Of a stretch of DNA of 64,000 bases, positions 15,601 to 61,140 are shown piece by piece. Position 1 is the first letter of the stretch; the number at the start of each line of letters is the position of its first letter. Source of the DNA: Cornus controversa (taxonomy: Eukaryota; Streptophyta; Magnoliopsida; Cornales; Cornaceae); contig CM048853.1 in NCBI GenBank assembly GCA_026545225.1, forward strand, positions 40,564,755 to 40,628,754, written 5' to 3'. A program made the position numbers and the translations under genes. The notes under the pieces are model-generated. The model was not told where the DNA came from and made no database searches. It worked only from the letters and a program-made list of their open reading frames with translations.

Positions 15601-15608
15601 ACTTATAC
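12603..15608. other. 3' flank of laccase copy A, no gene
   Basis: The sequence is AT-rich and non-coding. From about 13005 it is colinear with 50872 onward, the 3' flank of laccase copy B. The match breaks at about 14650 (52460 in B), where each copy has its own unrelated insert, and resumes at TCCTTTCTTGAATGCTTATT (15438 in A, 52774 in B). At 12603-12655 there is a short direct duplication of AACAAACATATTATAATTTT. Confidence 0.7.
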
Positions 15609-18535: not shown

Positions 18536-18586
<51 letters not shown>

Positions 18587-20611: not shown

Positions 20612-20653
<42 letters not shown>

Positions 20654-21953
20654 AAATTACATATGTGGTCCAAAGGATTCTTCCCGCAATCTATTGTTTG
20701 TGTACCTAATGAAAGATAGATTGTATATGGAGCTTTTTTTTTTTTTTTCCATGAATCAGTTAGTAATGTTAAATTAAGTGTACCGAGTACTATGACTTCT
20801 TCAGAATCAGGTTTTGGAAATGGATAAGTTGTTCCCTCAGCAGGCAAGATGATGATGGCACCATGCACACTACTTTGAGTCCAGTCACTGTGGGCATGCC
20901 ACCAAACGGTTCCTTCCTCAGTAGAAAATATGATCTTGTAGGTGAAATTTGTGCCAGCCACGATTGGACACTGTGTGATGTAACGTGGACCATCCGACCA
21001 TGGATTCCTTGGTTGTTTTACTCCATGCCTGTCAATATATAGGTTATTACATTTTTCAGTTATCAAGATCACATATTAATCCTTGTGAAGCATTAAAATG
21101 TTTTTTTTTTTTTTTTTTCTGGTAAAAGGTAAATTTGTATGGAATGGGAAAGACTTATCATGAACTAAAAAAAAAAAAAAGCACAAAGTTAAACACCAAC
21201 AAAGTTGTAGGTGTGGGTGTCGGCTTGAATGTGAACTGGATGAAAGGAATATACTCGTCGATCTAATAAGACAGAGCAACAATACCTCAGAACCGAAGCA
21301 AACATAGAGTGGTGGGCCCCACCAATCGCTATCTTTGTTTCGTTTTTGAAGTTCAGACCACAAATCATTTGCATGCGTGTGTTTTCGACTTAGACTAGGT
21401 TTTGGATCTGAAATTTCTTCTACACTTTTTGTAGGAAAAAATTTGTTTAGATTCTTTTGAGATTCCGTAATCTCCGAAAAACTCTGGTGTACGTGAGAGT
21501 GAGAGAGAGAGAGAGAGAGAGGTAGGAGAACCAGTGAACTCAGAGAGAGAGAGAGAGGGTGAACCAGTGCAGTGTGACTCCATAATTCCCATGATTGTGA
21601 ACATTTACAAACACAGTATCTCCTTTGTGCACACGAATAACTGGTCCAGGAAAACTATCATTAACGGTCAACATGCTCTTTGTACTGCAAAGTCTTGTAA
21701 AATATGTCTCCTTCACCTGCAAGGGAATATATATATATATATATATATATATTAAACGAAATGGATAAAGCACTAAAATAAGGTCGAAACCAAGATATAT
21801 AATAAGCAATGTTTTTGTGCACATACACACACGTATATGTATTTATTTATTGGTACTTACAAAAAAGTCATAATAATGGTCTTTGCCCTGAGCCAGACTA
21901 GTGATGGAAAGTAATAACATGAACCATAAATACTTTGAGAACACTGCACTCAT
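15609..21953 (-). CDS. LAC: Laccase (multicopper oxidase), copy A, seven exons, 585 aa
   Basis: A secreted blue-copper enzyme (p-diphenol:O2 oxidoreductase) that oxidises phenolics such as monolignols or flavonoids in the cell wall and reduces O2 to water. Exons: 21953-21861, 21716-21565, 21028-20784, 20160-20032, 19389-18798, 18098-17743, 15799-15609, all with GT-AG borders; they sum to 1758 bp without an internal stop. Residues 1-23 are a signal peptide (hydrophobic core WFMLLLSITSLA). Copper motifs: L1 HWHG (81-84, split by intron 2), L2 WWHAH (124-128), L3 HPMHLHG (466-472), L4 HCHLTKH (528-534), giving ten His plus Cys529. The residue ten after the Cys is Met539, a weak axial ligand, as in LAC14/LAC15-type plant laccases rather than the usual Leu. 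Length is normal. The exon 5 acceptor could lie 6 bp upstream (19395), adding two residues. Intron 6 carries a TRIM concatemer. Confidence 0.95.
15905..17455 (-). repeat. TRIM-like LTR concatemer in laccase A intron 6
   Basis: At least seven LTR-like starts of the form GTGACATCCCACATCG(C) lie near 15906, 16380, 16609, 16862, 16973, 17202 and 17302. Each is followed by GAGAGGTTTGTTGAGACTTA and a GTGTGCAAAGC-GATA-TATCTACACG block. Between some units are GATATCAGAGTC/GTATCAGAGCC, resembling the initiator-tRNA-Met primer site, and AAGAGGGGGTGATT, resembling a polypurine tract. The motifs read left to right, opposite to the gene. No protein is encoded, which fits TRIM elements. The same array lies in the same intron of copy B. 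The strand given is that of the host gene; the array's own motifs read on the plus strand. Confidence 0.75.
18538..18583. repeat. (TA)n microsatellite in laccase A intron 5
   Basis: 46 bp of TA dinucleotides. The matching place in copy B (about 56759-56770) has only a short run. Confidence 0.95.
20612..20650. repeat. (AT)n microsatellite in laccase A intron 3
   Basis: About 38 bp of AT dinucleotides just downstream of exon 3. Copy B has a much shorter run at about 59136-59149. Confidence 0.9.
21727..21752. repeat. (AT)n microsatellite in laccase A intron 1
   Basis: 26 bp of AT, 10 bp upstream of the exon 2 acceptor on the minus strand. The same site in copy B is 56 bp long. Confidence 0.95.
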
Positions 21954-22100
21954 GGTGACGAAACACGTTTCTTTCCTTTTCTGCAAGCTTCAAGTATATA
22001 CTAAAGTGTGTATGTACACAACTGTACACAACTTCATATATATATATATACACACAGAGAGAGAGAGAGAGAGATTTCTTATAAGAGTGCTTAATTTCTG
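21954..22100 (-). promoter_or_regulatory. Proximal promoter and 5' UTR of laccase A
   Basis: On the minus strand a TATATATATATATGAAG run (about 22037-22050) lies roughly 85 bp upstream of the ATG and could serve as the TATA element. Just upstream of it is a (CT)n tract of about 20 bp, a common plant core-promoter feature. The start context is TCACCATGAG. The counterpart in copy B has the TA run (about 61063-61079) but lacks the adjacent CT tract. Confidence 0.45.
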
Positions 22101-23856
22101 GTGGACTTTCGGTTGTATTATTTGTTGTAAGAGTGTTTTCTGGTGGACTTTCGGTTGGATTGGCATCATTTCTACACCTCTTGTACAAACTTACCCGGCC
22201 ATTGTATTGTTTTGGTTGGGTTCACATGTTTGTTGTTCATACGAGGTTCACAAAAATGTGTGGTGTTGCCGAAAGCTGCAGGTTTTGGTGTTTTTGAAGA
22301 GTGATGTTACGGGTAAAAGTTTAAATCTTGTGACACATGCGAGTAATGCTATAATACGACACGTTTGTGCTGGGCAGCCCGGGTTCAATTCCCCTAGCTA
22401 ACATCTAACCTAAAACCTTACATTGCCTTGAAAAAATAATAATAATCATGTTCGTTACCAACTCTCGTTACTAGTATCATGTGACAACACAATCTCTCCT
22501 CCTACTCTCACGTGTCGCGAGATTTTGGTTAACATAGGGTATTAGTGATAATTAATTATTTGAGTGAACATGAAATTTTGAAAAAGTTATATACTATTTT
22601 TACTCTTTCACGTTAAAGACAACTAATTTTTATGAAAAAATTATAACGACAAAGAATTCTTACTTTTGAAACAAATTTCTAGCAAAGTTTTATAAAAACT
22701 AGAAGACCTCTTTTACTCTTTTTCATTTATTAACAAGACCTTTTTTTTCTTTTTTAGCATTATTCTTCATCTTTGGAACTCTTCTTCACTCTTTCACAAC
22801 ATCTTCTCCTTTCATCACCATCAACCATTTTTTTAAATGATTCAAGTATGGTAATATATTTATCTTTTTTTTCTTTTCTTTTTTTATCTGAAATTTGATG
22901 ATTGTATGCAGATTTAGAATATATTTTTTGCAAAATTTTAAGTTCAGTTTTGTATTTTATTTTTCTTGGCATTCAACAAGGGAAGGATGTTTACTTAGCA
23001 TTCATGATGAACCAATGCATGCATGCATGCATGGCTCATACCATCAAACTACAAACTCATAACCAACCAATGCTTGGATTAATATTAACATATATACGCG
23101 TGCGTGTGAGAGAGAGTGGTGAGAGTGAGAGTGAGTGAGTTTAGCAAAACACACTCCATTTGGGAATCTATCTGAATAATACTTGGATCTTGCTCTGACA
23201 GTATGAACATCATTCTCCCTACTTATGTGGACCAATAGAATTAAAACAGCTGTCGAAAATTTTATTTTTTTTAAAATGAACATTATCCATCTTTTGTGGG
23301 TTAAACGAAAAGTTCATCGTTTATTAATTTTTTATTGTCTTTCAACTTCTATCTGCACACTCATTGATCCACATAAACAAGAAAAATAATATTAGTATTG
23401 TCAGGACAGGATCCAAATATTATCCAATCTATTATGCATGATTTGGAATTTATGTACTTTCATGTTTGAACAATCAACAGTTAACAATGGCTGTCTATTA
23501 GATTGATTTATTTATTTATTAGGTTTTGGTTATTTCCTCGTAAGGCTTGAATAGACACAAGGATGTATATAATCTCACGTTACAACTTTATTGAAAATAG
23601 GTTTCAAAGTGCAAAAGTAAGATTAGGCTTGGAATTTTTTCTGACCCCCGATTTTCTGGGATGACGTGACCACCCCGCCCCGTTCATTCTTCCCATTCTT
23701 CTTTAGTAGGGACCAGATTTGACATGGAAAATCTAACCGAGTCTCATCATTGCGCGTGAGACTTTTCATTAAATTGCCCTTTTTGTGAGTAGACATTTTT
23801 CATTAAATTGATTTGATCGATCGGTAGTTTGGATATATTCTTATATGAACAATGGC
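22101..23856. other. Upstream region of laccase A, no gene
   Basis: Non-coding sequence, partly colinear with 61080-61950 of copy B (for example TGGTGGACTTTCGGTTGG at 22141 and 61111). At about 22375-22390 GCCCGGGTTCAATTCCCC resembles a tRNA box B, followed at 22430 by an A-rich tail; this may be a SINE fragment. A GCATGCATGCATGCATG run lies at about 23017-23032. Confidence 0.5.
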
Positions 23857-30945: not shown

Positions 30946-31315
30946 AGGATGCAATCCATATGTTTATGGAGCTATATTCTCCAAATGAAATCAGCCCGAA
31001 GGAGACATTTTTTACCAAGTGCTTGGTGATACAAGGATGAAGGGGTAAAATTATCATCCGGTCCAATGAGTTCAGAAAACAGATCAGGCCCACATCGGCT
31101 TGAGTCCATGTATCAGCAGAAAGCCCAAATGGGCTGGCTTGTTAATTGTTAAGGGCCTAATCACCCCACCGCAATGCTAAAAAGGCCAAATCTAAAGCAG
31201 ACTTATAACTCAAAAAGGAATCCAAATTTTTTGAAAGAAAAGTTAGCTGACAATAAGAAAATTAAAGTCTTAAAAGAATTAAAATTCCTACTTGTATAAA
31301 TATTCATGAAACTAT

Positions 31316-31580
31316 CACTACAAGAAAAATCACTTTTAACGACGGGCAAAAATGCTTTCCATGATGGGCTTTGTCCATTGTAATATGGCCTGTCGTAGTT
31401 AATAAGTAACTTTCCACGATGGTCTCAATGCCCGTCGTAGAAAGTCCACTTTTCACAACGTGCCACGCCTGTCATAGAAAGGCAACTTTTCACAACGTGC
31501 CACGCCTGTCATAGAAAAATCACTTTCCACGACAGGGTAAGCCGTCATGGACTTTCTACGACAGACTTGGCCCCTCGTAA
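31316..31580. repeat. CACTA left subterminal repeat zone
   Basis: Six or more copies of a motif about 10-12 bp long, such as CCACGATGG, ACGACGGGC, CCCGTCGTAG and GCCTGTCATAG, occur in both orientations. A roughly 42-bp stretch (TTTTCACAACGTGCCACGCC start) is directly repeated at 31449 and 31488. The matching right zone is 41600-41790. Confidence 0.85.
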
Positions 31581-31932
31581 AAAGTAAATTTGTTTTAAAA
31601 AAGAAATTTGGATGCTTTCCATTATCCCATAACCGGTACAACAACCAAACACAACCAGAACTCCATCCAAATCCATATATATCCTCACCAAGCCTTGTAT
31701 AAACAACATGATATAAATAAACTTAAAAGTATAGAAAATGGTAAATTTGAATTTAAAGCTTACCAATCACAAAAAATAAATCCCAATCCATTTTTATATT
31801 CATTAAAGAGTTCAAAAGTACAAAGTTCCATCACTATTATTATCAGTACAAGAGAAAAGTTTCAATCCTAACACAACCAAGACATTTCCCACCAAGTTCA
31901 AACTGCAAAAGTTTCACTCCAAAGCATTTAAA

Positions 31933-34900
31933 TGTAATACCCCGAAAAATTTGGACGTCTATTATTTTAAAGAATTTAAATTTCTTTATATTATTATTTT
32001 TTTTATTTTTCAATTCATGTGGAATGCCTTTATATGCATTTTATCATTTCATGTGAATTGTTAGGTCTTTATACAATTATTATTTTATGTGAATTGGTTG
32101 TCTTTATAAATTCTTTCATTTCATGTGAATTGCTCTATTTTTATTTTTATCAATTTATATGAATTGTTTATTGATTGTGTATTATTTGATTTAAATATTT
32201 TAAATGCTTTGAATTGGGCTAGGGAGGAATCTGGGCTGGAATGGTTGGGCTAAGAATATGCTTAATTAAGTTGTTGGGCCATGGTTATAATTATATTATT
32301 ATGGTTATTATTATTATTATTTTTAGTTATTTAGTTTTTAGAAAATAATAATAATAATAATAATAGAATAAAAATGATTAGGACAAAAGATAATAGAAAT
32401 TAGGGTTTTTGCCGTTGCTTTACGCACAGAACTGAGGGAGTAAACAAAAGAGAGAAGGAGTTCGGGTGAACGAGTGTTTGAATCGTCAAAGAGGCAAGTT
32501 TGATTCTTCTCTTCCCCTTTGAATCCGTATGCATAGTTTAGGTTTGAGGATTGTGTTTATTTTGGAAATTTGTATATAATTGTATGTTTTTTTTCTCTGT
32601 TGATAAATTTTGTGAGAATTAATTATGGTAATTGTATAGACATGTTGCTAGAAATTTGTATGCATTTAATTATGAAATTAAATAATTTTGCATGCTAAGA
32701 ATAATTCTGTGAATTAAACATTAGGATTTTGGAGTTTTGGTACAGTTTTAGAGTATTTTTGCATATGTATATACATGTATATATGATTGTATAGGCGGGT
32801 GTATATATATACGAACATGAAATTTGGGTCTACTGTGTTTATCATTTTTGAGGGATTTTGTTCCGATTAAAAGGTAGATCTTACTTCCTAGAACAATCCT
32901 TGAAAGTTTCGTTATGAACCGTTGGGTAGATTGACGGGAAATTGAGTTTTAAATTTTAGATTTTCGAAACTTGAAATTGGGTGTTTTTGATTTAGTCCGC
33001 GAGAGGGGATAATTTTGGTACCAATACGTAGCTTAGATCGATACGAGTTCAATGGTATATTCATATGCGCGATTCGGTGCTCGGAAGTGATTGGGAAGCT
33101 CGGCCTCCATTGTTGGCCGCTGGAGCTTCAGCCGGGGAAGAAGGAAGAAGAAAGAAAAAAAAAAAAAAGAAGAAAAAGAAAAGGGGCCACGCGTTCCCCG
33201 GCGCGTGGGGGCGCGTGCCGCCGGCGCCGGTGGCCGGAAAATTATTTTTGGGGCCACTCTCGGGGGCCCACCTCTGGGTCCAATATGGGCCCATTCCGAA
33301 TTGTTTTAATATTTATTTTGTATTTTTGAAATTTTTGAGAAAACTTGAAAATCTGGAAAAATGATTTTTTTAAAATATTTTTATAATTCTAAAAATTCCC
33401 AAAATTTTATTTCAACTTCCTGGGAGCTTAAGGCGCTTGGGGTTTAAATTTCATATCAAAATTATTTACCATTGTCTTTAAATTAATTTTTAAAGTGTCT
33501 AAAAACTGGATTTTTCAGCCTCTTTAATTTTAAAAAATAGTTAGAAATTTTAAAAAATTCCGAAATTTTTACTGTAGCTCTCTGAAGGCTAAATACACTT
33601 GAGTTTAAATTGTCAACTCAAAATGATCTTTCCTTGTTATTCAATTGATTTTTAAAATATCCAAAAGTTGGGTTTTTCACATTCTGTAATTTTAGAAAAT
33701 ACTTTTATAATCCCAAAAATTCCCAAATTTTTACTGTAATTCTCTGGAGGATAAATACACTTGGGTTTAAATTTTCAACTCAAAATAATCTTTCCTTGTT
33801 GTTCAATTTATTTTTAAAATGTCTAAAAGTTGGATTTTCACCTTCTTTTATTTTTAGAAAATATTTTAAAATTCCAGAAAATTCTAGAAAAATTTAGGTA
33901 ACTTTATAGGATTAAAATCCACTTGGGTTTTAAATTTCATGTCAAAATGAGTCTCCCTTGTGATTGTGTTGGTTGTGAAAGTATGCCTCGAATTATGTTT
34001 ATTTTTTTTTGCTAGAATAATATTTTTTTAAAATTCTCAAAAATTCTAGGAAATTCCAGCATGGTTTAATAGGGTTATTAGCAGTAGAATATGCCCAGAA
34101 ACCTAGATAAAATTTAGGTTTAGACTCCCTCATATATTTGGGTGCATTGAAGGTTGAATTGGGAAATTACTTCTTTAATGGATGTTTGAGTTATTTGATT
34201 TACTTGAATGTAATTTTCTTTAAGGATATAAATGCCCATCAAATACTTGATTATAGTCTACTTGTGAACGATTTATCTTATGATGATAATTTAATGTTGG
34301 ATGATTTGAAATAACGGTTTGTGCAAATTAAATCATAATGCACCTTGTTATTTTGTATTGCATATTGGAATGTATCTATGCATTTTATTTTGGCATGTAA
34401 GGATTGCCCGGCGTGTCAGGATCGCCCATACCTAATAAGGTATCTATGCATTTTATTTTGGCATGTAAGGATTGCCTGGGGTGTCAGGATCGCCCATACC
34501 TAATAAGGTATCTATGCATTTTATTTTGGCATGTAAGGATTGCCCGGCGTGTCAGGATCGCCCATACCTAATAAGGTATCTATACATTTTATTTGGCATG
34601 TCAGGATTGCCCGGCGTGTCAGGATCGCCCATACCTAATCAGGTAACTATACATTATATTTGCTTTGTCATGATTGTCGAGACTTAAATAAATGCATGCA
34701 TATGTTTCTTTACTTTGAACTTAAAGAAGGTGTTCATTGTAGAATGATAAGGGTTCGTTGGGATAACATATAAGATGATTTTGATTTCTAAAAACATGAA
34801 CTAGGTAGGGGAATGACCAGTATGTATATATACCTATACCTATTAAGGTATCAAAAGATAAAATGGTGACATGTTAGGATTGCTTAAACTTGATAGCATT

Positions 34901-35545
34901 GTATGTTATGTTTATTTCTGCTGAACGTAAGGAATGTGTTCACGTGTGCATAATAAAGGTTTGGGTGGAATATTATAAATGTTGACTATTGTTTTGGAAA
35001 CATGAAATTGGATAAAAGAATAACTTGTATGTTAAATCTATGAACTTATTTCGTGTCCCTTATATTGAGGGTATGTATATTGGTTCTCTGATTGTGATGT
35101 AGTAGATAGAACTTGCTCGTGGGTTTAACCCACTTTGTTGATATTTCAGGTTTCAGACAGGTTCCACTGCAAGGATAGAGTTTTAGGGTTAGTTGTGACA
35201 GACATCTACTCTCACCAGTCTCAGGGTAGGAATCTATTTTTTTCTTCAGGAGTAAAACTATGAACTCATTTAGAGGTTTTGGTTTTGGATTTCAATTTAA
35301 GTGTTAAACTTTTGTTCTTTCTGGTTAAGGGGTCCTTGGGTTACGGGACTTCCAAATTGTACTACCAGAATTTAATTATTTAGTTATCAATTATTTCAAT
35401 TCAATGGGATTTCTATTCAGCTTTTAACAATTATTCTATTTCTGTCTTTTGCATCTATGCTTGTTGCTACCAGTTGTATGTATCTCCCAGGTTTTGTGTA
35501 TGAGACTGGCCACCTCATGCGCGAAATTTTCTAGGGGGTATTTCA
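31933..35545 (+). mobile_element. Long solo LTR (3.6 kb) inside the CACTA element (fossil)
   Basis: It begins TGTAATACCCCG and ends GGGGGTATTTCA, flanked by a perfect 5-bp duplication TTAAA (31928-31932 and 35546-35550). It is homologous along its length to 6544-9820, including the GC-rich block (about 33180-33300) and four 68-bp minisatellite units (about 34390-34650). No internal region remains, so it is a solo LTR. Because it carries a target duplication inside CACTA sequence, it inserted after or while the CACTA interior existed. Open frames over the GC-rich and A-rich block are not genes. Confidence 0.92.
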
Positions 35546-35892
35546 TTAAATCGAGACTCCAAGTAACCAAGCATAATTGAAAACAAAGTAAAAAACAGAT
35601 GCATCAAAAGACATTACAATCTCTTTTATAGTAGGCACTAGGAAAAGTAAAATGGCACATAGCATTAAGCATAACTAATTGCAAATTTCAGTAGCATCAT
35701 GCATTCCTTATCCTGGATTAGGAACAACTTTATATCTCCAAGGCCCAATTAGGCAACTAACCTGTCAGCTACTTCTGAGAGAGAGTAAATAGTAGACATA
35801 AGTCCAACCATAAACCTCTAGCATGAGTCACTAAAACTTTGGAAATTGAACCAGAAGTACAAGTTTGAAAGAGAGGAATTTGTTCATAACCT
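35546..35892. other. CACTA interior between solo LTR and NDA-like fragment
   Basis: Non-coding and AT-rich. It resumes the host CACTA sequence interrupted at 31932. Nothing else is recognised. Confidence 0.5.
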
Positions 35893-38206
35893 AGGCCAAA
35901 GCTAGAAGGGTTGGTTTTCTAGTGCTTTCAAGAAACCTACTGCAGTCACCAATTGAGAACACGTCCTGCACCAAAGGAACGCGTAGCCACTCATCAACAC
36001 CAATCCTGTAAAACACACATCAATCTCAATCTGCTAAACATAGACAAATAGTCATATAAGACTGAGTTTAGTATGGGAACGTTTTTACTTGAGCATAGGT
36101 TTTACTTTGGAAACAAAGAAGTGAAAATAGGAAAATAAATATGAGAACAAAGGGACCCAAAGATAGCAAGAATGGTAGTGGAATGCAGTATGGCATTAAG
36201 CAAAGAAGAAAAAGTATCTTAATAATTAGCTCAAGATCGACTTTTCTAAGGAAAACTTTAATGGTGTCTCAACTTTCAACTGTTTTAATCTTTTAGACAC
36301 CTCTCTATGGAACTTTAATGGTGTCTCAACTTTCAACTGATTTAATTTTTTAGGAACTCTATGGACTTCCGGAAAATATCTACCAGGAAAGGAGTAACCA
36401 CTTTCTCAAAGGAGTTTCTAGAAAATATGCTTAAATCATCCATACATACAAACTTTGGAAAACGAAAACACAATTTGTAACTTACCTTCCACCTAGAGCT
36501 TTTGGAAGTTCCATGGAGCTTACAAATGGTGAAGGACCAACACCAGTAGACCATACCAGAAGCCCATATGGAACATCAATTCCATCAGTAAAAATAATTT
36601 TCTGAGGTTGAACATCCTTGACAATCACACAGACATGTCAGACTCCTGACTGAGAGTGAGTATTAGAATCAAAATGAAACAAAACAAAACTGAAATGGAA
36701 TGAAAATTTCTTCACATGCTATGACATTTAAATAAATACCAAATCTTTTTTCTTTTTCTTTTTCTTTTTATTTTTATTTTTTTATAGTTGGAACTGGAAG
36801 GTTTGTGGAAATTAGGTAGAACAAGGAAGCAAGGTTTTGATCAACCTTTCTTTCTCTAATTCTTTACTTCTAGTGATATTTGGTAAATTCATCCATTCCA
36901 CTGCACAGATCCATGAACCAGCTCCACTGAGAAGGAAATTTACATGTATATGAAGAAAAGTTTGGATAGCTCTATAACTCATTATTTCACAACAGTACTT
37001 GGGTTTATCAACATTGGCATTTATAACTCCAGGGGGTTGGCTAACTTGGCCCTAATGCCTAGCAAGCTTTAGATCTAAGGATGAAATCCTCTTGGGTGCA
37101 AATAATTCTTTGGAGGTGGATGGGTGTACCAACTAGGAAAAAAAAATAAAAAAAATTGGCATATATACATTGCATAATTCCAACACATCATTGAAAGTAA
37201 ATTACTCTAAAAAAAACCTTAATTATGGGCTTTGTTCCAAATCCATGTCTAGGAAAGAATAAATTGCAGCACTTACACTTACCACCCCATCTTAACCCAT
37301 CTTCTTGATTCCTTCTATAGAAACAGAAGTATAAATTTACTACATATTTTAACAAAAAAAGGATATTTTTTTATATGGGATATTTAAGAGTAGACCTTGC
37401 AAAAAAGGATATTTTAATTATGGGCTTTGTTCCAAGAGCAGACCTTGCAATAAGAAAATGAGCAGTACCAAATAAACATGAAAACATATTTAAGAGTGGT
37501 GCTGACAGGATCATTATATCAATTGATAATCTCTCAACTTAGTTAACTGTTTAGTTGCATATCGGCGAAGGCGATCATCAAATCTTGTTTGCCTGTTAAG
37601 ACATGTAAATCATAATCTTTTAATCACATTTTTTTTTTTTGTTTTTGGTAAATAAATTTTTAATCAAATATTGATCAAGTTAAAATTAGATCTTATTGCA
37701 ATCAAATTCAATAAATGAGCTCTAAAGTCAAGTGGAATACTTCAGCAAAGCCTAGGTGTTGCATAGATGGCATGAACTCTGGTGAAGCTAGCAAGAAAAT
37801 TCAGCTCAATCATATCTAATGAAAATATACCAATGGACAAACCTCAATCAAAGTAATGTTGATATAGTCATTTACATGAGCGTATCTTTGATGAACATCC
37901 CTGAGGATAAAGTCACTAAGTTCACCGCTAAACTCAACTCCTGTGGGACCACCTCCAACAACAACGCAATGTAATTAAGAGTCTTCCCTTCTCATCTTCT
38001 GTAATTCCTACCTCATCCCATACCCAAGAGAAATATTCACAATGAGAGTTCATATCGTGGATCGGTGTCTCAACACCCAATAAAATCAATATCTTCTAAA
38101 GAGTAGAGGCCTCTACTCCAGATGCAATAACTAGCTTGTCATATGAGATTTTAAATTTCCATCGATCCAATGTATCTGCTCCATTAGTAGCAGTTTGACA
38201 GTGCAC
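35893..38206 (-). pseudogene. Captured fragment of an alternative NAD(P)H dehydrogenase (NDA-type) gene
   Basis: Exon-like blocks in gene order on the minus strand: 38206 to about 38090 ([34 protein letters not shown]); about 38020-37843 (ITEDEKGRLL, then [41 protein letters not shown]); about 36632-36486 ([30 protein letters not shown]); 36005-35893 ([37 protein letters not shown]). These match, in order, the middle and C-terminal parts of plant internal type II NAD(P)H:ubiquinone oxidoreductase, including the second Rossmann motif GGGPTG. Introns are kept with GT-AG borders. Stops (after VEASTL, and at LALA-stop), a frame change before LHCVVV, and missing N-terminal FAD domain and EF/C-tail make it non-functional as an NDA enzyme. 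Captured by the CACTA element. Confidence 0.85.
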
Positions 38207-38209
38207 CTA

Positions 38210-39419
38210 GTGTAACAAAATTAAATTGCTTTTGGTCACCCATATTTCAAATCTATGAGACTGCCATTTAACTATGCTTAATTGCCTAGAAATTATAGAA
38301 ACGGGAATTGAAATCCCAAAAACATCATTTAAGGAACCTGACTCAAGTTTATCTAACTTTTTGGATGGGGGTTGCAAAAGAATTCTAAGGAAAGTTGCCT
38401 TTCCTTTAATATGTTTGGTTGAACAAGAAGGTAAGGAAGTAGTAGGAAAGAGAGCATGACGTGGTTATACTCTCAACCTGAACATATGAAAGGAATAGTT
38501 TTTATTCGTAAAATTGTTGAAAAAGAGGAGGATCCCTTGTTGTAAGAAATAATATGGTTAGCCAGGACGGAAAGGCTCTCCCTCCTCCATTTCCTTCCTT
38601 TCACCTTTTCCTCCCAACAAACTATGGGAGCATTACTTCCCCTCCCATTTTCTTTTCCCTCTTCCATTCATTTCACTCTTTCCATGGATCATAAAACTAT
38701 TAGACTTTTTTTATTTTTTAAATAAGTACCAAAAGGACATAAGATTCCACGATTTCAATTATATTGTTATCAATTTTTGGTATGTTAGCTCGCATAAATC
38801 TCTTACATAAAGTCAAATAAAATAAACTAACTACTATTTCTAATCATAAATTCAGCAAATTATTGCAATGGAAGCAATTAATCCATCCATCAAAATGAAC
38901 ATCTTCCTTCTCGATAATGTTTTCCCCATAATATAACTCTACCTATTAAAAATTCAAAGTACTAATATGTTCATTTTCCCATACTACCACTTACTATATA
39001 ATAAACAAATTTGATCCTTTAAAACTTTTATCCAAGTCCCCAGACTTTTAGCCAAAATCAATTTTCTAAAAAAAAAAAATACAAGAAGAGCAATTCTATT
39101 ATTAGGGGACCCTCACTGTAACCCAGAGCATTCAACTATTAGACAGGAAGTATATTGTAGCATCCTTTTGATCCAAGGCTGGTGACCAAGCGCCTCAGTC
39201 ATAGTTTTTCAGTTCTATTACCTTTCTAATATTTATCTGCTACCTCATAATTTGTGATGCTGCTAATCCGTCCTTTGTCCCATTCTAAATGGTTTTTTTC
39301 CTTTCACTTGGTTTTCTCTATTTTTTCCCTATTTGCATATTATTGTTCCGTCCCTTAGTTTAGTTAATTTTCTACTCTCCTTCTAGAGTGGTGAGTAGTT
39401 TTTTTTTATAGGATTACCG
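38210..39419. other. CACTA interior, no gene recognised
   Basis: Short open frames on both strands (for example around 38274-38459 and 38473-38667) look like chance frames. This is where upstream NDA exons would be expected, but I do not see the N-terminal FAD-binding GxGxxG motif. Confidence 0.45.
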
Positions 39420-39910
39420 ATTTGAAGGAGGTGGTGGTGAAAGTAGATGATGAAAACTTGCAGGAGGGTATTCAAGTGGGGATCTACAATTATTCAAATT
39501 GAGCATGAATATTTTCAAGTTTGTTTTCACAGAGAGTTGGACTTAAGAAAGGGTAAGGTTGGAGGCTCCTGGAGTTCTGAAATCCATCTTCTCTTATTTA
39601 GAGAATGGCAGAGAATTTTGAAGTTTCAAAATATAGAGTTTACATATATAATGGTGTTGATCCAAGTAGAAGTTTTTCCTCTTGAATGTAGTATGATTAA
39701 TGGTTGCCAAAATTTTTTATCAGGTTTGAAAATTGGACATAGAAGAATTGAAGGGGGTTGCTATATCAGAATTAGATTGGAAATAGATGTTTGCAAAGCC
39801 ATTCATAGGGGTGCAAGACTGAAATTGGTGGAAGGAGAGAATCAATGGGCCTATTTTCGCAAAACATGTCTATTGGTGCAAGACTGAAATTGGTGGAAAG
39901 AGAACTTAAT
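39420..39910 (+). pseudogene. DUF4283-like (plant LINE ORF1-type) fragment
   Basis: The frame from about 39447 resembles the DUF4283 domain in gapped form: FQVCFHRELDLRKG, then GGSWSSEIHLLLFREWQ, then the partner helix region VLIQVEVFPLEC and NGCQNFLSGLKIGHRR. The following IRIRLEIDVCKAIHRGARLK and NQWAYFR match the start of the linked zinc-knuckle part (zf-CCHC_4). In plants this pairing is found in LINE ORF1 proteins and related genes. No zinc knuckle, endonuclease or reverse transcriptase follows. A 14-residue-scale direct repeat (GTGCAAGACTGAAATTGGTG at 39811 and 39876) lies at its 3' end. Identification rests on weak pattern similarity. Confidence 0.45.
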
Positions 39911-40499
39911 TTAACTTTAATATACGAACCTCAAAGATCATATATTAGCGCCAGAATCAAACAGAAAGGAAAAAGGCCTAAAACGATGAATACACATACA
40001 TTGCAGAGCTTTTTCAATCATGACATATAAATCAAATCTCAGTTGAAGCATATTCACTGTTTATAGATGTCATTGTTTGAAAAGAAGAACCAATATATAG
40101 ATCTGATAGCAAGATAAAAATAATAGCAAACACAAATTTGCAAGAGATATACAGTGCTGTACAATTTCCAACAGAAATTGAAGTACCAAGAATGAAAAAT
40201 CAGTGATCAAACACCAAAAATATAATACAAATTAGGCAGCAGCGACAAAATTCCAACATTCAATTTGGGGAAAAATAAACTCAACATACAACAAGTGCAA
40301 ATTCAAAGCAAGCATATATCTATTTTGTGCGCATGTGAAAGTGTGTCACTACAATTAATTCATAAATCACTAAATCTCAATCAAGTGTGTCTGTGAGTGT
40401 GTATACAAACTGAAATACGTGCGTCTGTGAATGTGTTGAAAGAGAGAGAAAATTATACCAGTAGAAGGCTTTCTCAAACTCTTAAACCATACTCACAGA
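39911..40499. other. CACTA interior, no gene recognised
   Basis: AT-rich non-coding sequence. Nothing supportable is seen. Confidence 0.5.
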
Positions 40500-40920
40500 T
40501 CAAAAAAAGCTTAAATCATTGCCGAACAACATTAAAATCAACTCGAGAATGATTCCAATGGTTGTTGACGCGATCAATGGCTTCATCGTTGCCCTTTTCC
40601 ACGATGACTGTTCAGGTTTCACTGGTGGAACCATCAACACGGCTTGAGTCGAAACATTTCGGCTTGATGCAGTGGATCTGAGTCTTAAACTGAAATTAAA
40701 GGACATCAATGGTTTGGATTTGAGGAGTACGCCAGACTCGTCGTAGCCATTGTTGGGTGGCACCACTCCGAGGTTGAACGGCGGCATGGTGGAATTACAC
40801 CTCGTCAAGTCATTCTCATTCCTCGTCGAACGCTTCGAACGCTGCTGCCAGTGTACCCACCTAAACTGCAGCAGCGCGTAATCTGTCGTGTTCGAGGGAG
40901 AGAGAGAGACGTTGTGTATC
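40500..40920 (-). other. Unidentified coding-like, GC-richer segment
   Basis: The minus strand carries a relatively GC-rich stretch from an ATG at about 40788 (MPPFNLGVVPPNNGYDESG, then LRSTASSRNVSTQAVLMVPP) in a longer open frame (41159-40500). Base use differs from the AT-rich surroundings, which suggests another captured exon, perhaps an N-terminal targeting region. I do not recognise the protein. The rest of the open frame upstream is low-complexity (SLSHPLSHL) and probably not coding. Confidence 0.25.
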
Positions 40921-41208
40921 CTAATCGTCTCCCTTTTTTCTTTTAAATTTATCACACTCTGAATTCCTAAAAAATCCAGGGCGTGACAAATTGGACTAGC
41001 AATTTCAATGAATTTGATTTCCAATTGGTGGAAAATGGTGTTTAGATGAGAGAGAGGGTGTGAGAGAGATGAAATTTTGGAAAAATGGTGAATGAGAGAA
41101 AGGCTAGTGAGAGAGTGAAATGGTGACCTAAAATCATGTCCCCTTTTTCCAATATTCATGAGAGGAGAGAGAAATAAATGGGTTTGTTACCAAAAAAGAC
41201 AGAGCACA

Positions 41209-41519
41209 TGTGGTGACCCTTGTGGGCGGGTGTGATGTGGGTAGGTGCAAGACACTGGGTGAGCCACCACACTGGCAGGCTATAGGGTGCTCAATTCCAC
41301 ATCGCCTGGGTGTGGAATGAAAAAGTATTATATGTATGTTAATCACCCTTCTATGACACAACGCGTTTTAAAGCCGTAATGGTTGTGAATCCACTAGAAC
41401 TCCACAGTTAAGCATGTTTAGCTGGGAATAGTACCAGAATGAGTGAACCCCTAGGAAGTCTCTGGTCCGGGGAAACCAAAAGCAGACAATATTGTGTCGA
41501 GATAGGGTGAGGCGTTACA
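41209..41519 (+). mobile_element. Cassandra-type TRIM solo LTR with a 5S-rRNA-like domain (fossil)
   Basis: The 311-bp LTR begins TGTGGTGACCC and ends GGCGTTACA, with a perfect 5-bp duplication GCACA (41204-41208, 41520-41524). Positions about 41390-41465 read AGAACTCCACAGTTAAGC, then AATAGTACCAGAATGAGTGA and CCCCTAGGAAGTC. They closely match the 3' two thirds of plant 5S rRNA (AACTCCGCAGTTAAGC, AGTACTAGGATGGGTGACC), including the internal control region. Carrying 5S sequence in its LTR defines the Cassandra family. It is non-coding and lacks the internal region. It inserted within the CACTA element. Confidence 0.92.
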
Positions 41520-41599
41520 GCACATTTCTTAGGTGGCAGTTAATTTTTACACGCGGTAGAGTTCAATTCTGAAAAAAAATAGACCTTCAACATAAAATA

Positions 41600-41790
41600 A
41601 AGCCCGTGGTGGAAAATCTCTTTCTACCACGGGCCCAAGTAGCCCGTGGTGAAAAGTATTTTCTACAATGGGTTATGCGGGTCTATTGTAGCAAGTAACT
41701 TTCTACCACGGATTACACGAGCCCATCGTAGAAAGTGACTTTCCACCACGGACTGTGCGGGCCCATCATAAAAAATCTGTCGTTAAAGGC
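41600..41790. repeat. CACTA right subterminal repeat zone
   Basis: Repeated TTTCTACCACGGGCCC / GCCCGTGGTGGAAA-type motifs occur in both orientations about every 25-35 bp, ending in CGTTAAAGGCTAAATTTCTT and GTAGTG. Confidence 0.85.
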
Positions 41791-44700
41791 TAAATTTCTT
41801 GTAGTGTATCAATGAAAAAGATCCTCGAATCCACCTCTTACAATATCTCTTCTTTCTTTCTGAAAGTATTCTGTTCATTATTTTTAGGTCTATGCATTGA
41901 GTTATTTGGTAATTATCAGTTGAACAATTTCTTGTACCTATACTTTGGCGCCGTCTGTGGGAAACATTTAGTCATTTTTCCAAACAAAAGAAGTAATAAT
42001 CATGGTGGATACGAGTAGAAATACCTATGTTGCGGTGGAACTAAGTTGAACCCTAAGAATCAAAAGAGGGCTCCGCCCATACCACTAATACAGCTAGAGA
42101 CTCGGGATTCGCTGGCATGCCCTAGCATTCAGCAATTACCCAACAAAATGATGTTTTATGCCAACAAATTTGTAGGACAGGGTGGAACGCACTAAAAGCG
42201 CAAGAAACCCCAACAACAATAGAACGAAGGGGCCAGCTAGAGCAATTGCTCGATGAGCATCTCACATCAAAACTGATCTAGTAGTAGACATCATCACCCT
42301 GGACAGCCTAGTGAAGGTCAAGTGGATCCTTCGCAACCCCTCACGGAATGGAGAATCTAGATACAACGGGAGATCGATGCTCTAAAGGGCGACAAATCAG
42401 GCTATCCAGCTAATCGATCGTTCGCCACCACCCAGTTAACTGAATCTCCCTTCACCAAAGATATAGTCAAAACCAAAAGGTTGAGGAGGTTCGCTCTACC
42501 TACGTTCGCTACATTTGATGGAAAAATAGACCCGGTGGAACATATTTACCAGTACCACCAGAAGATGACACTGGATATCAAAAATAATGCACTTATGTGC
42601 AAAATTTTCCCATCCAATATGTCTGGGCCAGTGCTGCTGTGGTTCAAGTAGCAGCCACCCCGTTCGATACCAAACTTTGATAAACTACGCGATCTGTTCC
42701 TAGCCCAATATGCGGGAAACTAGGAACGCAAAAGGACGATCTCCTAGCTGTTCACTATAAGACAAGCCAAAAGGGAGACGTTGAAATCTTTCCTCACCTA
42801 TTTTAACCTAAAGATGTCCATGATAAATCAATGCGATCAGACCACCGTAGTTGAAGCATTTAAGATAGCAGTTTCTTTGAAAGAAAGTTTTGATCGATCC
42901 CTGGTAAAAAATGCCCCGAAAGATGTGGGTGAATTGAACTTCTAAAGCCCAAAAGTACCTGAGGATCAATGAGAATGAGACAGCCAGAACGTAACAATCG
43001 ACCTTGATTACTGTGGCGCAGCAGACCAAAAGCCAAATGGCCAAGCCTTCCTCATGTGCTCCTGAGATTGTGAAAAGAAAGAAGATTGAGGAGAAGATCA
43101 CCCCTCTAAAAGTAACCCTGGCCAGACTCTACTATGAAAACAAGGGTAAAGAAATTTTTCGCTCCCCTCCAGCTATTAGGCAGCCGATAGAGCAGAAAGA
43201 CAAAAAAAAATATTATTCCCTCCACAACTACTTCGACCATACCACTAATTAGTGTAGGAGCTTAAAACAACAAGTCAAAGCCCTGATCGCAAAAGGGGGG
43301 TTTGGCGGAGTACATCATTTGGGAAGAATAGACAAAAACTTTTGATCAACCCCAACAAAAGGCAAATAAATAGTTCAATATTGTTTCGGTCTGCATTATC
43401 AATGTTATTCATAGCCGACCAACCTCCGACTAAGCAAGCAAGTCTGAAAGGTGGTTGAATCTCACGAGTGCCCAGAAGATCTAAAGAATCGGAGAAACCC
43501 ATTGAGTACATGATCGCTCAACCAATACGCCTATCATATTCATAGACAAAGACATAGGCATGGTCCAAACGTCTCACGAAGATCCTTTCGTGATTAGCCA
43601 CTTCGTTTCCAACTGCGAGGTAAAAATGGTATTGGTTAACGCAGGGAGTAGCGCCAACATTTTGACTTTGTCTGCCTTCCAGCAGATAAGTCTAAAACTA
43701 GAACGCATCAGGCCTACCACCGAACCACTCATAGGCTTCAACGGTAAACAAATGACTCTAGTAGGGGTTGTAGAGCTACCAACTACTGCAGCCATAATAA
43801 CACTAACTGAGACCTTCATCATTGTATACTTTAACTCTTCATATAACATGATAATGGGAAAAGGCTAGATACACAGGATGCAAAGAATCCCTTCAACACT
43901 TCACTAACTTATAAGGTGCATCACTCTTAACGGGAAAGCCACAGTTTACATCATAGGAGATCAGATTGCTGCCAAAAGGTGTTACGCTCTTACGCTGAAG
44001 GGAAAAGCAGGGCAGCAAGAATCGAACAAATAGCAATTACAGAACTCTCTGTCGAATGGCGTTCCTTAGGAGCAGGAAAATGAAAGTCCAACCGAGGAAT
44101 TGTTTGAAGAGCTAGAGATCATTCCTGGCAAAGATTCCACAAACTTAGGGACCTCTTTATGCCAAATAAATAGAGTACAGTTGATACAGCCGCTAAGAAA
44201 GAATATTGACATTTTTGCTTGGGACCACACGGACATGCCTGGCATAGATCCCTCAGTATCATGCCATTTACTCAATGTCAATCCTAGCTTCCCACCTGTC
44301 AAGAAAAAGTAGGGACGGTTCACCCCAGAAAAGAATCAGATCATCACTTCGGAAGTAGATCAACTTTTATAAGCGGGGTTCTTCAAGGAAGTTCGGTTCC
44401 CTGACTGGTTGTCGAATGTAGTGGTGGTTCAGAAAAAAATGGCAAATAGATGGTCTACATAGATTATACCAATCTAAATAAAGCCTACCCCAATGATAGT
44501 TTTCCTTTGCCAAAAATCGATCAGATAGTCGATGCCACAACTGGGTACGAATGGCTAACATTCCTTGACGCGTACTCAGGATACAACTATATCCTGATGA
44601 ATCTGGCAAATCAGGAAAAAACTTTATTTATTATCGAAAATGGGACTTACTGTTACAAGATGATGTTGTTCAGACACAAGAATGTAGGAGAAACTTACCA

Positions 44701-50520: not shown

Positions 50521-52459
50521 ACTATGCTCTTCAATTCTGTCTATACTTTAATTCTAACATTTTTGTTGTAATATCAAGTAATAGCCTTATATACTTTTTT
50601 TCTTTTCATTTTCTCACTTTTAGCTTCATTTTTTAATTAAAATAATATAATAACCATTTAGATAAAAAAAAAAAGATTTTTTTTAAATAAACATAAACAC
50701 TAAAACATCATTTCAGTGTTTAGATTTCAAAAGCTTCTACTACAATATTGTTTTACAAGTGTTTAGACAATTTATAAACAAAATCAAAATTATCAAACAT
50801 GTTTATTCCCCAAATTTGTTTTTATAAACAATAAACACTAAACATAAATATTTACCAAATGACCAAAATTAATATATTCATTACTCTTGCCCAATTGACC
50901 GACTTAGATTTGAATGCTGTCTCTCAACTCTCTCCATTCAGATTTTTGTATTCCAAAATTCTATCACTCTTGCTCGATTAACTGACTCACCTCGCAACTC
51001 AAATTTTGTACAAATCGATTGTTCTTTATTTTGGACTATTTACCGTCAGTGCTCATAAAGGCATTGAAACTATCTAACAATAGATACTTAGCTTGTTAGT
51101 ATTTTTTATTCTCCTTTCTAAATATTTGTATACATATTTTTCACATGTTATTTGTCTAGAAAGATCAATCTAAAATTTACTGGTCTATGTCAAGTTTCAT
51201 TCTTCTAGAAATTTTTAGAATTGACATCAATTCTTAACATTCTTCTTTTTTTTTCAAGTGAGTTTTATTTTTTAATATATTTAATGTAAACTCTCTCCAA
51301 TTTATATGCAGATCAATTTAAACAAATATAATATTATAATATATTGAACTAAATATTCTATGAAAAATTGATAACCGAAAGAGATGGTTTCAACTACTTC
51401 TCTCAAATATTTTTTCTATTTATTTAAAATCCTTCTTACTTAATAACTAAAGCTACGAATGTATCTAACTTATTTAATTTGAAAACTTAAATTCTCGAAT
51501 TTAACTTTATTTCAAGACATGAAACAAAAATACCATAATAATCAGCAATTAATAGTATTAAAATAAAAATAGTTGTATTTTTTCGTAAACCTTACTTTTT
51601 CGATGTGGAATTCAGTATCTAGGATTTGGTGTTGTAATATTAATAAGGTAGAAAATAAAACTAATGTGCTTAAAATCAAATTTCCATTGTGTCATTGTCA
51701 TGTAATCTTTTTCGATGTGGAATATATTCACCATCTTATACCATCTACATCAGCCATTTCTTAGAGCATCTAGGTATGTTCACACTAATGGCAAGTTTTT
51801 GGCTTCTAACAAGGAACGTTTCTCTCTCATTTCTTGAGGTTTGGCCTAATTACTTTTAAATTAATTTTTTTGCAAAATTACTCTGATATCTCTATTAGAC
51901 TAATGATCCGTTAAACAAAATCACATATACTATACAATTACAAAAATATCTTCAAATTATAATGCTTTTGTGCAAAATAATTTTAATTTCTAATAATGTA
52001 ACTGAGATTAACATATTTTATATATACATTTTCTCCATCAATGTCACACTAGCACTACCACCATCAAGAATAGTTTGAGCATTTCGATTTTTTTATATTA
52101 ATTGACTTTAATAAAGTTGATTGTCCATCTTTTTTTAGCACGAGTTGACTGTTAATTAACGGTACCCTAAAAATAAGGATGTTGAACATCATTTCAAACA
52201 ATATCTTAAATTATGAAAAGTAATAACTTTAATTATTGGTGCTTCAATGACTTTAAAATCATTAAATTATTATTATTATTCTTTTAAGGAAAATTATGTT
52301 TTTGTAGTTCACACATATTATGAATGGACAACATTAGATGTTATGTCAATTTAGTGTTAAATTACCAATTGATCAGGCTTGCTTAAAGATTTCCAGGTAG
52401 ATTATCATTTAAGGACCTTTACAATATATTTAGATTTTGCTAGGATCACTTGGACACAT

Positions 52460-52773
52460 TTAATTGTATGACAGTTTGTAATTTATCAGAACACATGGGT
52501 TCGGATTATTTGATAATTTCTCCAAAACTAAACATATAACTTATATATCATTGGAAACAACCCCTTTAAAAGTGTACATATACTACAAGTTTAACATATA
52601 ATTTTTTCCCTATTAAACCGAAGTACAAAACATAAGACGAAATTGGTCCAAACGAAAATGGCTCTACCAACCTATTTCTTGAGTTCTCTAGAATCTCACA
52701 TACCCTTTCTTTTCTTGAGTGCGATTGAACATCATGGAGCAAATGTTTTAGATATTTTAATGTAACTTCCATC
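52460..52773 (-). other. Copy-B-specific insert in the laccase 3' flank
   Basis: This stretch has no counterpart in copy A, which has its own unrelated 14650-15437. The minus strand is open for 68 codons (KERVCEILENSRNRLVEPFS region), but no family is recognised. It is more likely repeat-derived than a gene. Confidence 0.4.
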
Positions 52774-52941
52774 TCCTTTCTTGAATGCTTATTTATAAGT
52801 CAACTATAATAATACATAACAATACCTCTCATTTACACTTATTAATCATTCAATGCAAAAGGTAAAAATATTGCGCCATTCACAAAGTCTAAGAAATGAT
52901 TTTATGTAAATAACATCCACCAAAACCTAATTAACTTATAC

Positions 52942-55900
52942 TTAATTGCTGGACATTTCAACTGAATCCTCGAATTCTTGAATATAATTAACGAATGATT
53001 CACTGCATCGAGGCATGGAAGAAGGGGGGTCGAGCATGCTTGTCTCGAGAGTTCCACCATCTTTCACTATCAACGCAGTTTTCATGCCCCAAGTGAGATG
53101 TTTAGTCAAATGACAATGCCATAGCCATACACCTAACAAAAATTAATCATTTAGTGCTAAGAACAAATAAGTAAATTAATCATTCATTATTAAGAACAAA
53201 TAAGTTATAGAAAAATGATTTAATGTCCGATAGTCAGTGTGACATCCCACATCATCTGGGGAGAGAGGTTTGTTGAAACTTATATGTATGAACACCCGCT
53301 AACCTTGTAGACGCATTTTGAACAAAACTGTGAGTACTAAGATGATAATATGCAAAGTGAATAGTATCTCCACGATGCGGGGCAGATTGTGACAAATGAT
53401 ATCATGGTATTAAAGTCAATTCCGAGTCAAAAATGGGAAAGAGCCCCACATGTCATAACAGATGGTATTAGAGCCAATCCTTAGCCAAAAATTGTGACAG
53501 ATCGATGATATCAGAGCCAATCCTAAGCCAAAAATGGGTGAGAGCCCCACAGGTCGTTACTAATAGTATCAGAGCTAATCCGGAGCCGAAAATGGGAGAT
53601 AGCCCCACAGGTTATGACAAATGGTATCAGAACCAATCCTGAGCCAAAAATGAGAGAGCGTGCCTAAGCCCATGAGGAACTGCTCTTGAGAGACCGGCCA
53701 ATAAGGACGCTAGGTTCCAAAAAGAGGTGATTGTGACGTCCCACATCGTCGGGGGAGAGGTTTATTAAGACTTATATATGTTGGCACCCCCTAATCTTGT
53801 AGACGAATTTTGAACAAAATCGTGAGCACCAAGAAGAGAATGTGCAAAGCGGACAGTATCTACACACTACGGGGGCAGGTCGTGAGGGTGTGCACAAGCC
53901 CATGAGGAATTGGTCTTGAGGGACTGACCAACGAGGACGCTACACCTAAAAAGGGGTGATTGTGACATCCCGTATTGTCGGGGGAGAGGTTTGTTAAGAC
54001 TTATATATGTGAGTACCTCCTAACCTGAAGACTAACCAACAAGGTTGTTGGGTCCCAAGAGGGGGTGATTTTGACATCCCTGGGCACCTCCTAATCTTGT
54101 AGACATATTTTAAACAAAATCATGAGCACCAAGAGTAGAATGTACAAGGCGGCGAGCATCTACACGCTATAGGGGCAGGTCGTGAAAGTGTACACAAGCC
54201 CATGAGGTACTGGTATTAAGGGACCGGCCAACGAGGACGCTAGACCTAAGAGAGGGTGATTGTGACGTCCCGCATCACCGAGGGAGAGGTTTGTTGAGAC
54301 TTATTTATGTGGGTAGCCCCTAACCTCAAGACCAACCAATGAGGATGTTGGGTCATAAGAGGGGGTGATTTTAACGTCCCACATCGTCAGGTGAGAGGTT
54401 CATTGAGACTTATATATGTAGGCACCCCCTAACATTATAGACACATTTTGACCAAAATCGTGAGCACCAAGAGGAGAGTGTTCAAAGCAGACAGTATCTA
54501 CACACTAATGGGGCAAGTCATGAGAGTGTCCACAAGCCCATGAGAAACTGGTTTTAAAGGACTGGCCAATGAGGACGCGAGACCCAAGAAGGGGTCATTA
54601 TGTCATCCCATATCGCTGGGGGAAAGGTTTGTTGAGACTTATATATGTGGGTAGACACATTTTAAACAAAATCATGAGCACAAAAAGGTGACGTCCCACA
54701 TCTGTAATACCCCGCTCCAACACATGGTATGATATTGTCCGCTTTGGGCCCAAACCCGCACGGTTTCGCTCTTGAGTTTTACCCTAAAAGACCTCATACC
54801 ATTTGAAGAGAACATACTACATATAAGCATATCCCCTTTTCCACACCCAGGTTATGTGGGATTGAGCACCCAGAATCATATCAGTGTGGTAGCTCAGCCC
54901 AGTCTCTGTCTTCGCACCCGCCCACTCACACCCGTCCATAAGGGTTACTACAATTCACCCCCCTACGAGGCCCGATGTCCTCATTGGCACACTTCCGACT
55001 GGGTTCAGGCTTTGATACCAACTGGATTATAATAACCCTTGTGGATGGGTGTGAGTGGGTGGGTGCGAAGACAAACACTATACTGAATTACCACACTAAA
55101 AGGGTATAGGGTGTTCAATCCCACATCGCCTAAGTATGAAAAAGGGAATGTGCTTATATGTAGTATGTTCTCTTCAAATGGTATGAAGCCCTTTGGAGTA
55201 AAACCCAAGAGCAAAACCGTGCGGGCTCAGGCCTAAAGTGGACAATATCATACCATGTGTTGGAGCAGGGTATTATAATTGGTATCAGAGCCTAAACCCA
55301 GCCGGAAGTGTACCGATGAGGACGTCGAGCCTTGTAGGGGGTGGATTGTAGTAACCCTTGTGGCGGGTACGAAGACAGACACTGGGCTAAGCTACCACAC
55401 TGACAGGGTACAGAGTACTGAATCCCACATCACCTGGGTGTGGAAAAAGGGATGTGCTTATATGTCTTATGTTCTCTTCAAATGGTATGAGGCATTTTGG
55501 GATAAAATCTAAGAGCAAAACTGTGCGGACTCAAGCCTAAAGAGGACAATATCATACCATGTGTTGGAGCGGGGTATTACAATATCGTCAGGGGAAAGGT
55601 TTGTTGAAACTTATATTTGTGGATAACCCCTAACCTTATATACGCATTTTGAACAAAATTATGAGCACTAAGAAGAGAGTATGCAAAGCATATAGTATCT
55701 ACACGCTGTGGGGGCAGGTTGTGATAGCGAAATTAACTCTCCAACTTATTTTATGTGAGTATAGTGATGTCAAAGACATCATATAAAATTAATCAGAGTT
55801 GTCCTAACTGTGGGCTCCTGACTTAGTTCAGAGGGCAAGGGAACCAATTAATTTTTGAAAAATGATATCTAGTCCAACAAACAAACTAATATGACTTTTT

Positions 55901-60734: not shown

Positions 60735-60796
<62 letters not shown>

Positions 60797-60992: not shown

Positions 60993-61140
60993 GGTGATGA
61001 AACACGTTTCTTTCATTTTCTGCAACCTTCAAGTATATACTAAAGTGTGAATGTACACAACTTAATATATATATATATAGAAGAAGCATTTGTTATAAGA
61101 GTGTTTTCTGGTGGACTTTCGGTTGGGTTGGCATTCAATA
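60993..61140 (-). promoter_or_regulatory. Proximal promoter and 5' UTR of laccase B
   Basis: The minus-strand sequence upstream of the ATG (context TCACCATGAG) matches copy A closely, including a TATATATATATATTAAG run at about 61063-61079 that may act as the TATA element. The CT tract next to it in copy A is missing, so the two promoters differ within about 120 bp of the ATG. Confidence 0.4.

Follow-up and report, generated by a model that had tools for sequence, protein, structure and literature searches.

How exons and introns of an NDA-type alternative NAD(P)H dehydrogenase gene come to lie inside a CACTA transposon, and whether they still do anything there, is the question raised by a locus of Cornus controversa. 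The window, that is the whole stretch of DNA analysed here, comprises 64,000 nt (C9:40564755-40628754) of an assembly of 771.7 Mb in 61 contigs. The main point of the original prediction, a CACTA element with a captured, intron-bearing NDA fragment, proved right, and its details were corrected. The whole is best explained, with a probability of about 0.93, as a defective, non-autonomous Pack-CACTA transposon loaded with gene pieces.

The element and its ends

The element and its parts, in window positions, are as follows:

31313-31315: left copy of the target site duplication (TSD) TAT, read directly
31316-41806: CACTA element, 10,491 bp
31316-31932, plus strand: left arm with the TIR CACTACAAGAAA, subterminal repeats and the body of CACTA lineage A
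31933-35545, plus strand: nested solo LTR, 3613 bp, TG...CA, TSD TTAAA (31928-31932 and 35546-35550)
35546-35592, plus strand: remainder of the lineage A left arm, ending at the capture junction, where AAA forms a 3-nt microhomology
35593-39203, minus strand: captured NDA gene piece, partial intron 1 to partial intron 6 with exons E2-E6; donor C6:58972139-58976221
39204-39853, plus strand: DUF4283-like piece, the second capture, with its nearest matches at C4:5.61, 5.81 and 5.86 Mb; GTTTT forms its join with the NDA piece
39926-41208, minus strand: lineage B right-arm body, with the GC-richer 40500-40920 and a 228-aa ORF (41186-40503)
41209-41519, plus strand: nested Cassandra-like solo LTR, 311 bp, TSD GCACA, 5S-rRNA-like at 41374-41471
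41520-41806, minus strand: right end with lineage B subterminal repeats and TIR
41807-41809: right copy of the target site duplication TAT, read directly

The word CACTACAAGAAA is found exactly at both element ends, at 31316-31327 (plus) and 41795-41806 (minus), and these are its only matches across the window with up to one mismatch allowed. By itself it is weak evidence, since the mean chance expectation is 0.55 and two or more matches were reached in 9 of 100 shuffles. The 28 bp at the termini are 82% complementary, and the subterminal motifs D4, D7, D10, D12 and I1 are repeated at both ends. The CACTA ends, TAT duplication and subterminal motif zones claimed in the original prediction are thus borne out by the exact terminal words, the TAT/TAT pair and the shared motifs. 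The traits of the CACTA (EnSpm) superfamily present here are CACTA-starting TIRs at both ends, a 3-bp TSD, subterminal repeats and relatives with Transposase_21 (tnp2), and those of Pack-CACTAs are the lack of an own transposase, host-gene sequence with a parent elsewhere and evidence that the loaded element has moved.

The absence of a transposase, also claimed before, holds as well. No Pfam transposase match was obtained in the 10 ORFs scanned out of 65 listed (at least 38 aa) in 35550-41207, a transposase-bearing relative aligns to the element in its arm only, and none of the best 150 of 492 candidates in a genome-wide PF02992 search lies inside the element. A query made of the joined flanks found no copy of the empty insertion site elsewhere within the window.

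The captured NDA piece and its donor

A 52-aa block (37819-37974, minus strand) matches Pyr_redox_2 with an E-value of 1.1e-4 and 22.2 bits, under the cut-off of 26.1, and also solved NDH-2/Ndi1 enzymes with a best E-value of 1.1e-8. With 36000-37000 as the query, long matches were obtained at C6:58.97 Mb (95-96%) and C1:120.71 Mb (91-95%), the eleven remaining rows spanning about 40-85 bp each. The C6 locus aligns to 35593-39208 in three collinear pieces with 93.1-94.6% identity, exons and introns alike. It holds a complete NDA-type gene of 8 exons with a spliced frame of 496 codons plus stop (the exon model drew on a guide protein), with GT-AG borders at all five exons later captured. Because of this long exon and intron match, the intact frame, and the best of five further genome matches to exon 1 reaching just 69%, the C6 gene, on another chromosome, is the donor of the NDA piece. 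A genomic NDA parent with the same introns, the search for which had been proposed, therefore exists; the C9 copy differs from it at 132 of 2987 non-exon sites (K2P 0.0457). The NDA paralogues at C5:64.44 Mb were rejected as parents, their exon 1 being only 68-69% identical, as were ten exon-only matches (C1:22.19 Mb, C2:85.16 Mb and others), which cover about 50-85 bp of one exon and belong to another repeat family.

These ten loci (L014-L023, e.g., L016:4790-4867) carry about 50-85 bp of E5 (window 36553-36636) at 77-88% identity within a repeat family unrelated to the element, and most of nine starts of that family begin near TGTCACGCCCC. This repeat resembles an LTR, and the case looks like a second, independent pick-up of NDA E5.

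The original prediction described four NDA exon blocks in the right order with introns kept; the NDA identity, the order and the introns stand, and the number of exons is five (E2-E6). In the parent these measure 214, 161, 66, 164 and 115 bp, so that 720 of 1491 coding bases were captured. Their present state on the minus strand is the following:

38102-38206, minus strand: E2, 105 of 214 bp remaining and 109 bp lost; 3' half and donor site deleted
37843-38007, minus strand: E3, frameshift by a 4-bp insertion; splice dinucleotides intact
37538-37592, minus strand: E4, 11 bp deleted; donor GT gone
36486-36649, minus strand: E5, parental frame interrupted by a stop; splice dinucleotides intact
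35891-36005, minus strand: E6, parental frame now with a stop as its final codon here; splice dinucleotides intact

All five captured exons are therefore damaged or truncated. In the exons the C9 copy differs from the donor at 34 of 600 sites (K2P 0.0594), which is not below the non-exon value and gives no sign of protein constraint; judged from its sequence, no useful protein is encoded in this piece. C-to-T or G-to-A changes account for 29 of the 53 private C9 changes, as compared with 41 of 99 private to sister copy C1a and 7 of 32 on the donor-or-shared branch, and this excess would be consistent with a methylated, silent element. With 1.3e-8 and 7e-9 substitutions per site and year, the non-exon K2P places the capture roughly 1.8 to 3.3 million years ago.

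Sister copies of the loaded element

Parts of the capture are present in two other CACTA copies, which shows that the loaded element has spread:

C1:120706747-120712842: sister copy C1a
C1:49861200-49864250, minus strand: sister copy C1b, in locus L046 (C1:49861200-49867199)

C1a has the same joins between the A arm and NDA and between NDA and DUF4283, the NDA pieces, the B body and the right end. Missing from it are 37276-39041 and the first 464 bp at the left, and an insertion of about 1.5 kb is found in this copy alone. C1b shares 38249-39838, 39875-41139, the right end and the NDA/DUF4283 join with C9, its NDA content being the intron-1 part, whose right border is identical. Left of 38249 it consists of other material with abrupt borders, of which 1941 bp were searched (36 of 36 candidates scored): bases 1-852 gave one match at C1:103.41 Mb (96%), and for bases 852-969 and 1026-1941 match stretches were found at several places. 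A gene-like piece of this material, an exon-like 81-aa ORF inside the stretch that matches C1:103.41 Mb, has no Pfam match. An intact left end was seen in neither sister copy, the stretch of C1b covered ending short of that end.

At C1:120.7 and C1:49.86 Mb, too, NDA sequence from parts of the piece adjoins sequence of this element, which means that the NDA piece moves with the element. These joins bear directly on the notion that the NDA block is a segmental duplication or a degenerate NDA paralogue that was later hit by a CACTA insertion. Such an origin would agree with the preserved exon order and introns; it is contradicted by the NDA segment found, with identical borders, between the arms of the element at C1:120.7 Mb, by its intron-1 part at C1:49.86 Mb, where the right border is again identical, and by the C9-C1a alignment, which ends at 41810, right outside the element, and we give it hardly any credence. 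Capture by the element is thus preferred.

The divergence between C1a and C9 (0.0927) exceeds that between C9 and the donor (0.0479). C9 and C1a agree with each other and differ from the donor at 32 sites, against 53 sites private to C9 and 99 private to C1a, indicating that their common stem after the capture was short. The copies have since decayed separately, and the C9 copy later gained two LTR retrotransposons, which are now solo LTRs.

Nested solo LTRs

The two solo LTRs, which the original prediction lacked, take up 3613 bp and 311 bp of the 10,491 bp of the element. Both are missing from C1a, which has a single copy of each target site (with GCGCA for GCACA), and both insertions are therefore most simply younger than the split of C9 and C1a. 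When the first 701 bp of the longer LTR were used as the query, 2720 candidate places were obtained and the best 40 scored; the listed matches include two pairs in direct orientation with a spacing of about 6.96 kb, which is what whole LTR elements would give. A further copy of this LTR family, with 78-87% identity, is present at 6544-9823 of the window.

The 311-bp solo LTR is, we assume, most like Cassandra. Its 5S-rRNA-like stretch (41374-41471) scores 26.9 bits (E 0.25), below the Rfam cut-off of 38, and part of this LTR occurs twice in locus L040, 323 bp apart. Cassandra TRIM retrotransposons have, according to the available part of the source, LTRs with a 5S-rRNA-like stretch (PMC10853983), a feature that the present LTR may share; only a solo LTR is found here.

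Directly to the right of the element, at about 41946, the sequence TGGCGCCGTCTGTGGGA is located. It resembles a retrotransposon primer-binding site, so that an older LTR may have been the landing site of the CACTA element.

Two arm lineages

Searches with the left arm, the right end and the right body returned, respectively, 70 match rows merged into 40 loci (best 40 of 267 candidates), 40 loci (best 40 of 537) and 39 loci (best 40 of 67). Among the matches listed, 29 of the 39 B bodies have a B right end no more than 15 kb away, and in the comparison of the 40 x 40 listed loci, the window and C1a are the only places where a left and a right arm are separated by 40 kb or less. The left end can thus be assigned to lineage A and the right end to lineage B among the matches listed, and as far as these go, the element is an A/B hybrid. 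Copies with both A and B could occur further down the rankings, the best 40 of 267 and 40 of 537 candidates having been scored.

For at least five left-arm loci, a PF02992 match starts 2.1-2.5 kb from the start of the arm match, the pairing of arms with transposases having taken in 18 of the 150 PF02992 places, picked by eye. In one lineage A relative, L047, Transpos_assoc, Transposase_21, DUF4218 and DUF4216 follow in that order, reading leftward; its PF02992 match has an E-value of 1.2e-89, and the arm segment (31685-31933/35546-35595) is situated about 930 bp upstream. Over 6.5 kb, L047 aligns to the element solely at 31685-31933 and 35546-35595. No A arm was found in the 4.6 kb to the left of the lineage B member L048, and none of four A members (L038-L041) gave a match to the B body. 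Two of these four weakly resemble the right end (72 bp at 81% and 198 bp at 69%), which counts against a hybrid origin. A transposase inside the same four loci was considered and dropped after the listed ORFs of at least 110 aa had been inspected by eye.

The DUF4283-like piece and the right-arm body

The DUF4283 profile matches 39447-39884 (plus strand) with an E-value of 2.6e-5 and 24.4 bits, under the cut-off of 27.2. That this fragment is a further capture, as had been suggested, is supported by its 95% and 82% identity to the nearest C4 sequence; at this level of likeness, the true donor may be another member of the family.

A capture of the GC-richer segment by this copy, the other suggestion, is not upheld. 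The stretch has 47.5% GC, as compared with 34.6% for the element as a whole, and it is found nearly whole, at 80-88% identity, at no fewer than 21 loci besides the window, C1a and C1b. Its 228-aa ORF has no Pfam match and no codon-position bias, the differences at codon positions 1:2:3 from three relatives being 24:25:22, 24:20:29 and 23:24:27. The many carrier loci, the even codon positions and the lack of a Pfam match speak against a gene captured by the C9 copy. Two short partial matches at C8:27.17 and C2:60.65 Mb could point to an older source of this lineage B segment.

Origin of the capture

In the available part of the published accounts (PMC8903248; PMC13317346), neighbouring Pack-TYPE elements are proposed to mobilise as one, giving AB hybrids with the intervening DNA. 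The A and B arms fit this model of hybrid Pack-CACTAs. Transposase from lineage A relatives would have moved the element. Its hybrid form would have arisen when adjoining A and B elements moved as one unit, and to this joint mobilisation we assign an even chance. Its bracketing step is without direct support, as there are no CACTA arms beside the donor NDA segment in 20 kb around the C6 gene.

The joins have 3 nt (AAA) between the A arm and NDA and 5 nt (GTTTT) between NDA and DUF4283. Together with the origin of the pieces on C6 and C4, they suggest that template-switching repair was also involved; pieces from unlinked chromosomes would have been added in the course of gap repair at such microhomologies of 3-5 nt. 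Gap repair might also account for the element on its own: a CACTA copy would have been excised and the gap filled by copying the unlinked NDA (C6) and DUF4283 (C4) loci with no fusion of elements. The junction microhomologies, the different chromosomes of the pieces, the still other pieces with abrupt borders in C1b and the donor flanks free of CACTA arms speak for this course of events, which we consider a plausible, if somewhat less probable, alternative. Repair within one element would not, however, yield arms from different lineages as seen among the loci listed, and a fusion of neighbouring A and B elements, supplemented by template switching, is still the reading we favour.

Possible function and known counterparts

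The NDA piece lies on the minus strand, the orientation of the L047 transposase gene relative to the shared arm, and a transcript from the right end would consequently read NDA in sense. At most, non-coding or chimeric transcripts or small RNAs might be expected from it. Sense transcription from the right end could in principle give small or chimeric RNAs with a regulatory effect on the C6 NDA gene; the shared orientation and the splice dinucleotides retained at E3, E5 and E6 would permit this, and chimeric splicing has been published for Tgm-Express1 (PMC1947982, available part). Against such a function stand exons no less diverged than the remainder of the piece (0.0594 vs. 0.0457), the 29 of 53 C9-specific changes compatible with a methylated, silent element and the LTRs inserted in the element, and we regard it as very unlikely.

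Tgm-Express1 of soybean (Zabala and Vodkin 2007; PMC1947982), as described in the available part of the report, is a CACTA-type element with exon and intron pieces of host genes, whose captured exons can be spliced into RNA. It has pieces of several genes, five in 5.7 kb, whereas the Cornus element has one main gene; the soybean element also occupies an intron of a gene that is expressed and for which chimeric transcripts are known. The Pack-CACTAs of Arabidopsis and maize, in what is available of a survey of Pack-TYPE elements (PLoS Genet 2022; PMC8903248), are likewise non-autonomous, with the CACTACAA TIR, gene pieces from multiple loci and the transposase elsewhere, and AB-type hybrids are reported among Pack-TYPE elements. 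What sets the Cornus element apart from them is a single large, contiguous 3.6-kb piece that includes introns, together with the two young solo LTRs nested in the element. No earlier description of an NDA capture by CACTA was found in the literature searched, which left most subscription papers outside.

Other features of the window

Two blocks of the window, 13339-22115 and 51093-61125, are duplicates with seven collinear pieces of more than 650 bp and 79-95% identity, and either half has a Cu-oxidase (laccase-like) ORF (18713-19465 and 56946-57635). The stretch 18276-18340 (plus strand) matches the type-P1 twister ribozyme with 37.5 bits, against a cut-off of 67.2, and an E-value of 1.4e-4, and the motif GGTCCCAAACCCG is exact at 18309. 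The plain, pseudoknot-free fold of this stretch was no better than that of shuffles (z 0.31).

Conclusions

Gene theft by CACTA transposons is already established in plants, and the Cornus element is one more case. We also considered a wider reading, in which the hybrid-ended CACTA lineage is a running collector that retains one arm of either lineage and inserts unlinked pieces between the two by template switching, in which an LTR-type repeat family independently took up about 80 bp of an NDA exon, so that two or more unrelated elements have sampled this gene, and in which small RNAs from all copies could act on the living NDA gene. This wider reading seems doubtful to us; if true, it would explain the differing combinations of NDA, DUF4283 and one or more further gene-like pieces among the copies. 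The donor, the loaded element, its two sisters, the transposase-bearing relatives and the later insertion sites are all visible in one assembly. The Cornus case thereby permits a base-level comparison of two routes to such elements, the fusion of neighbouring elements and gap repair from unlinked templates.
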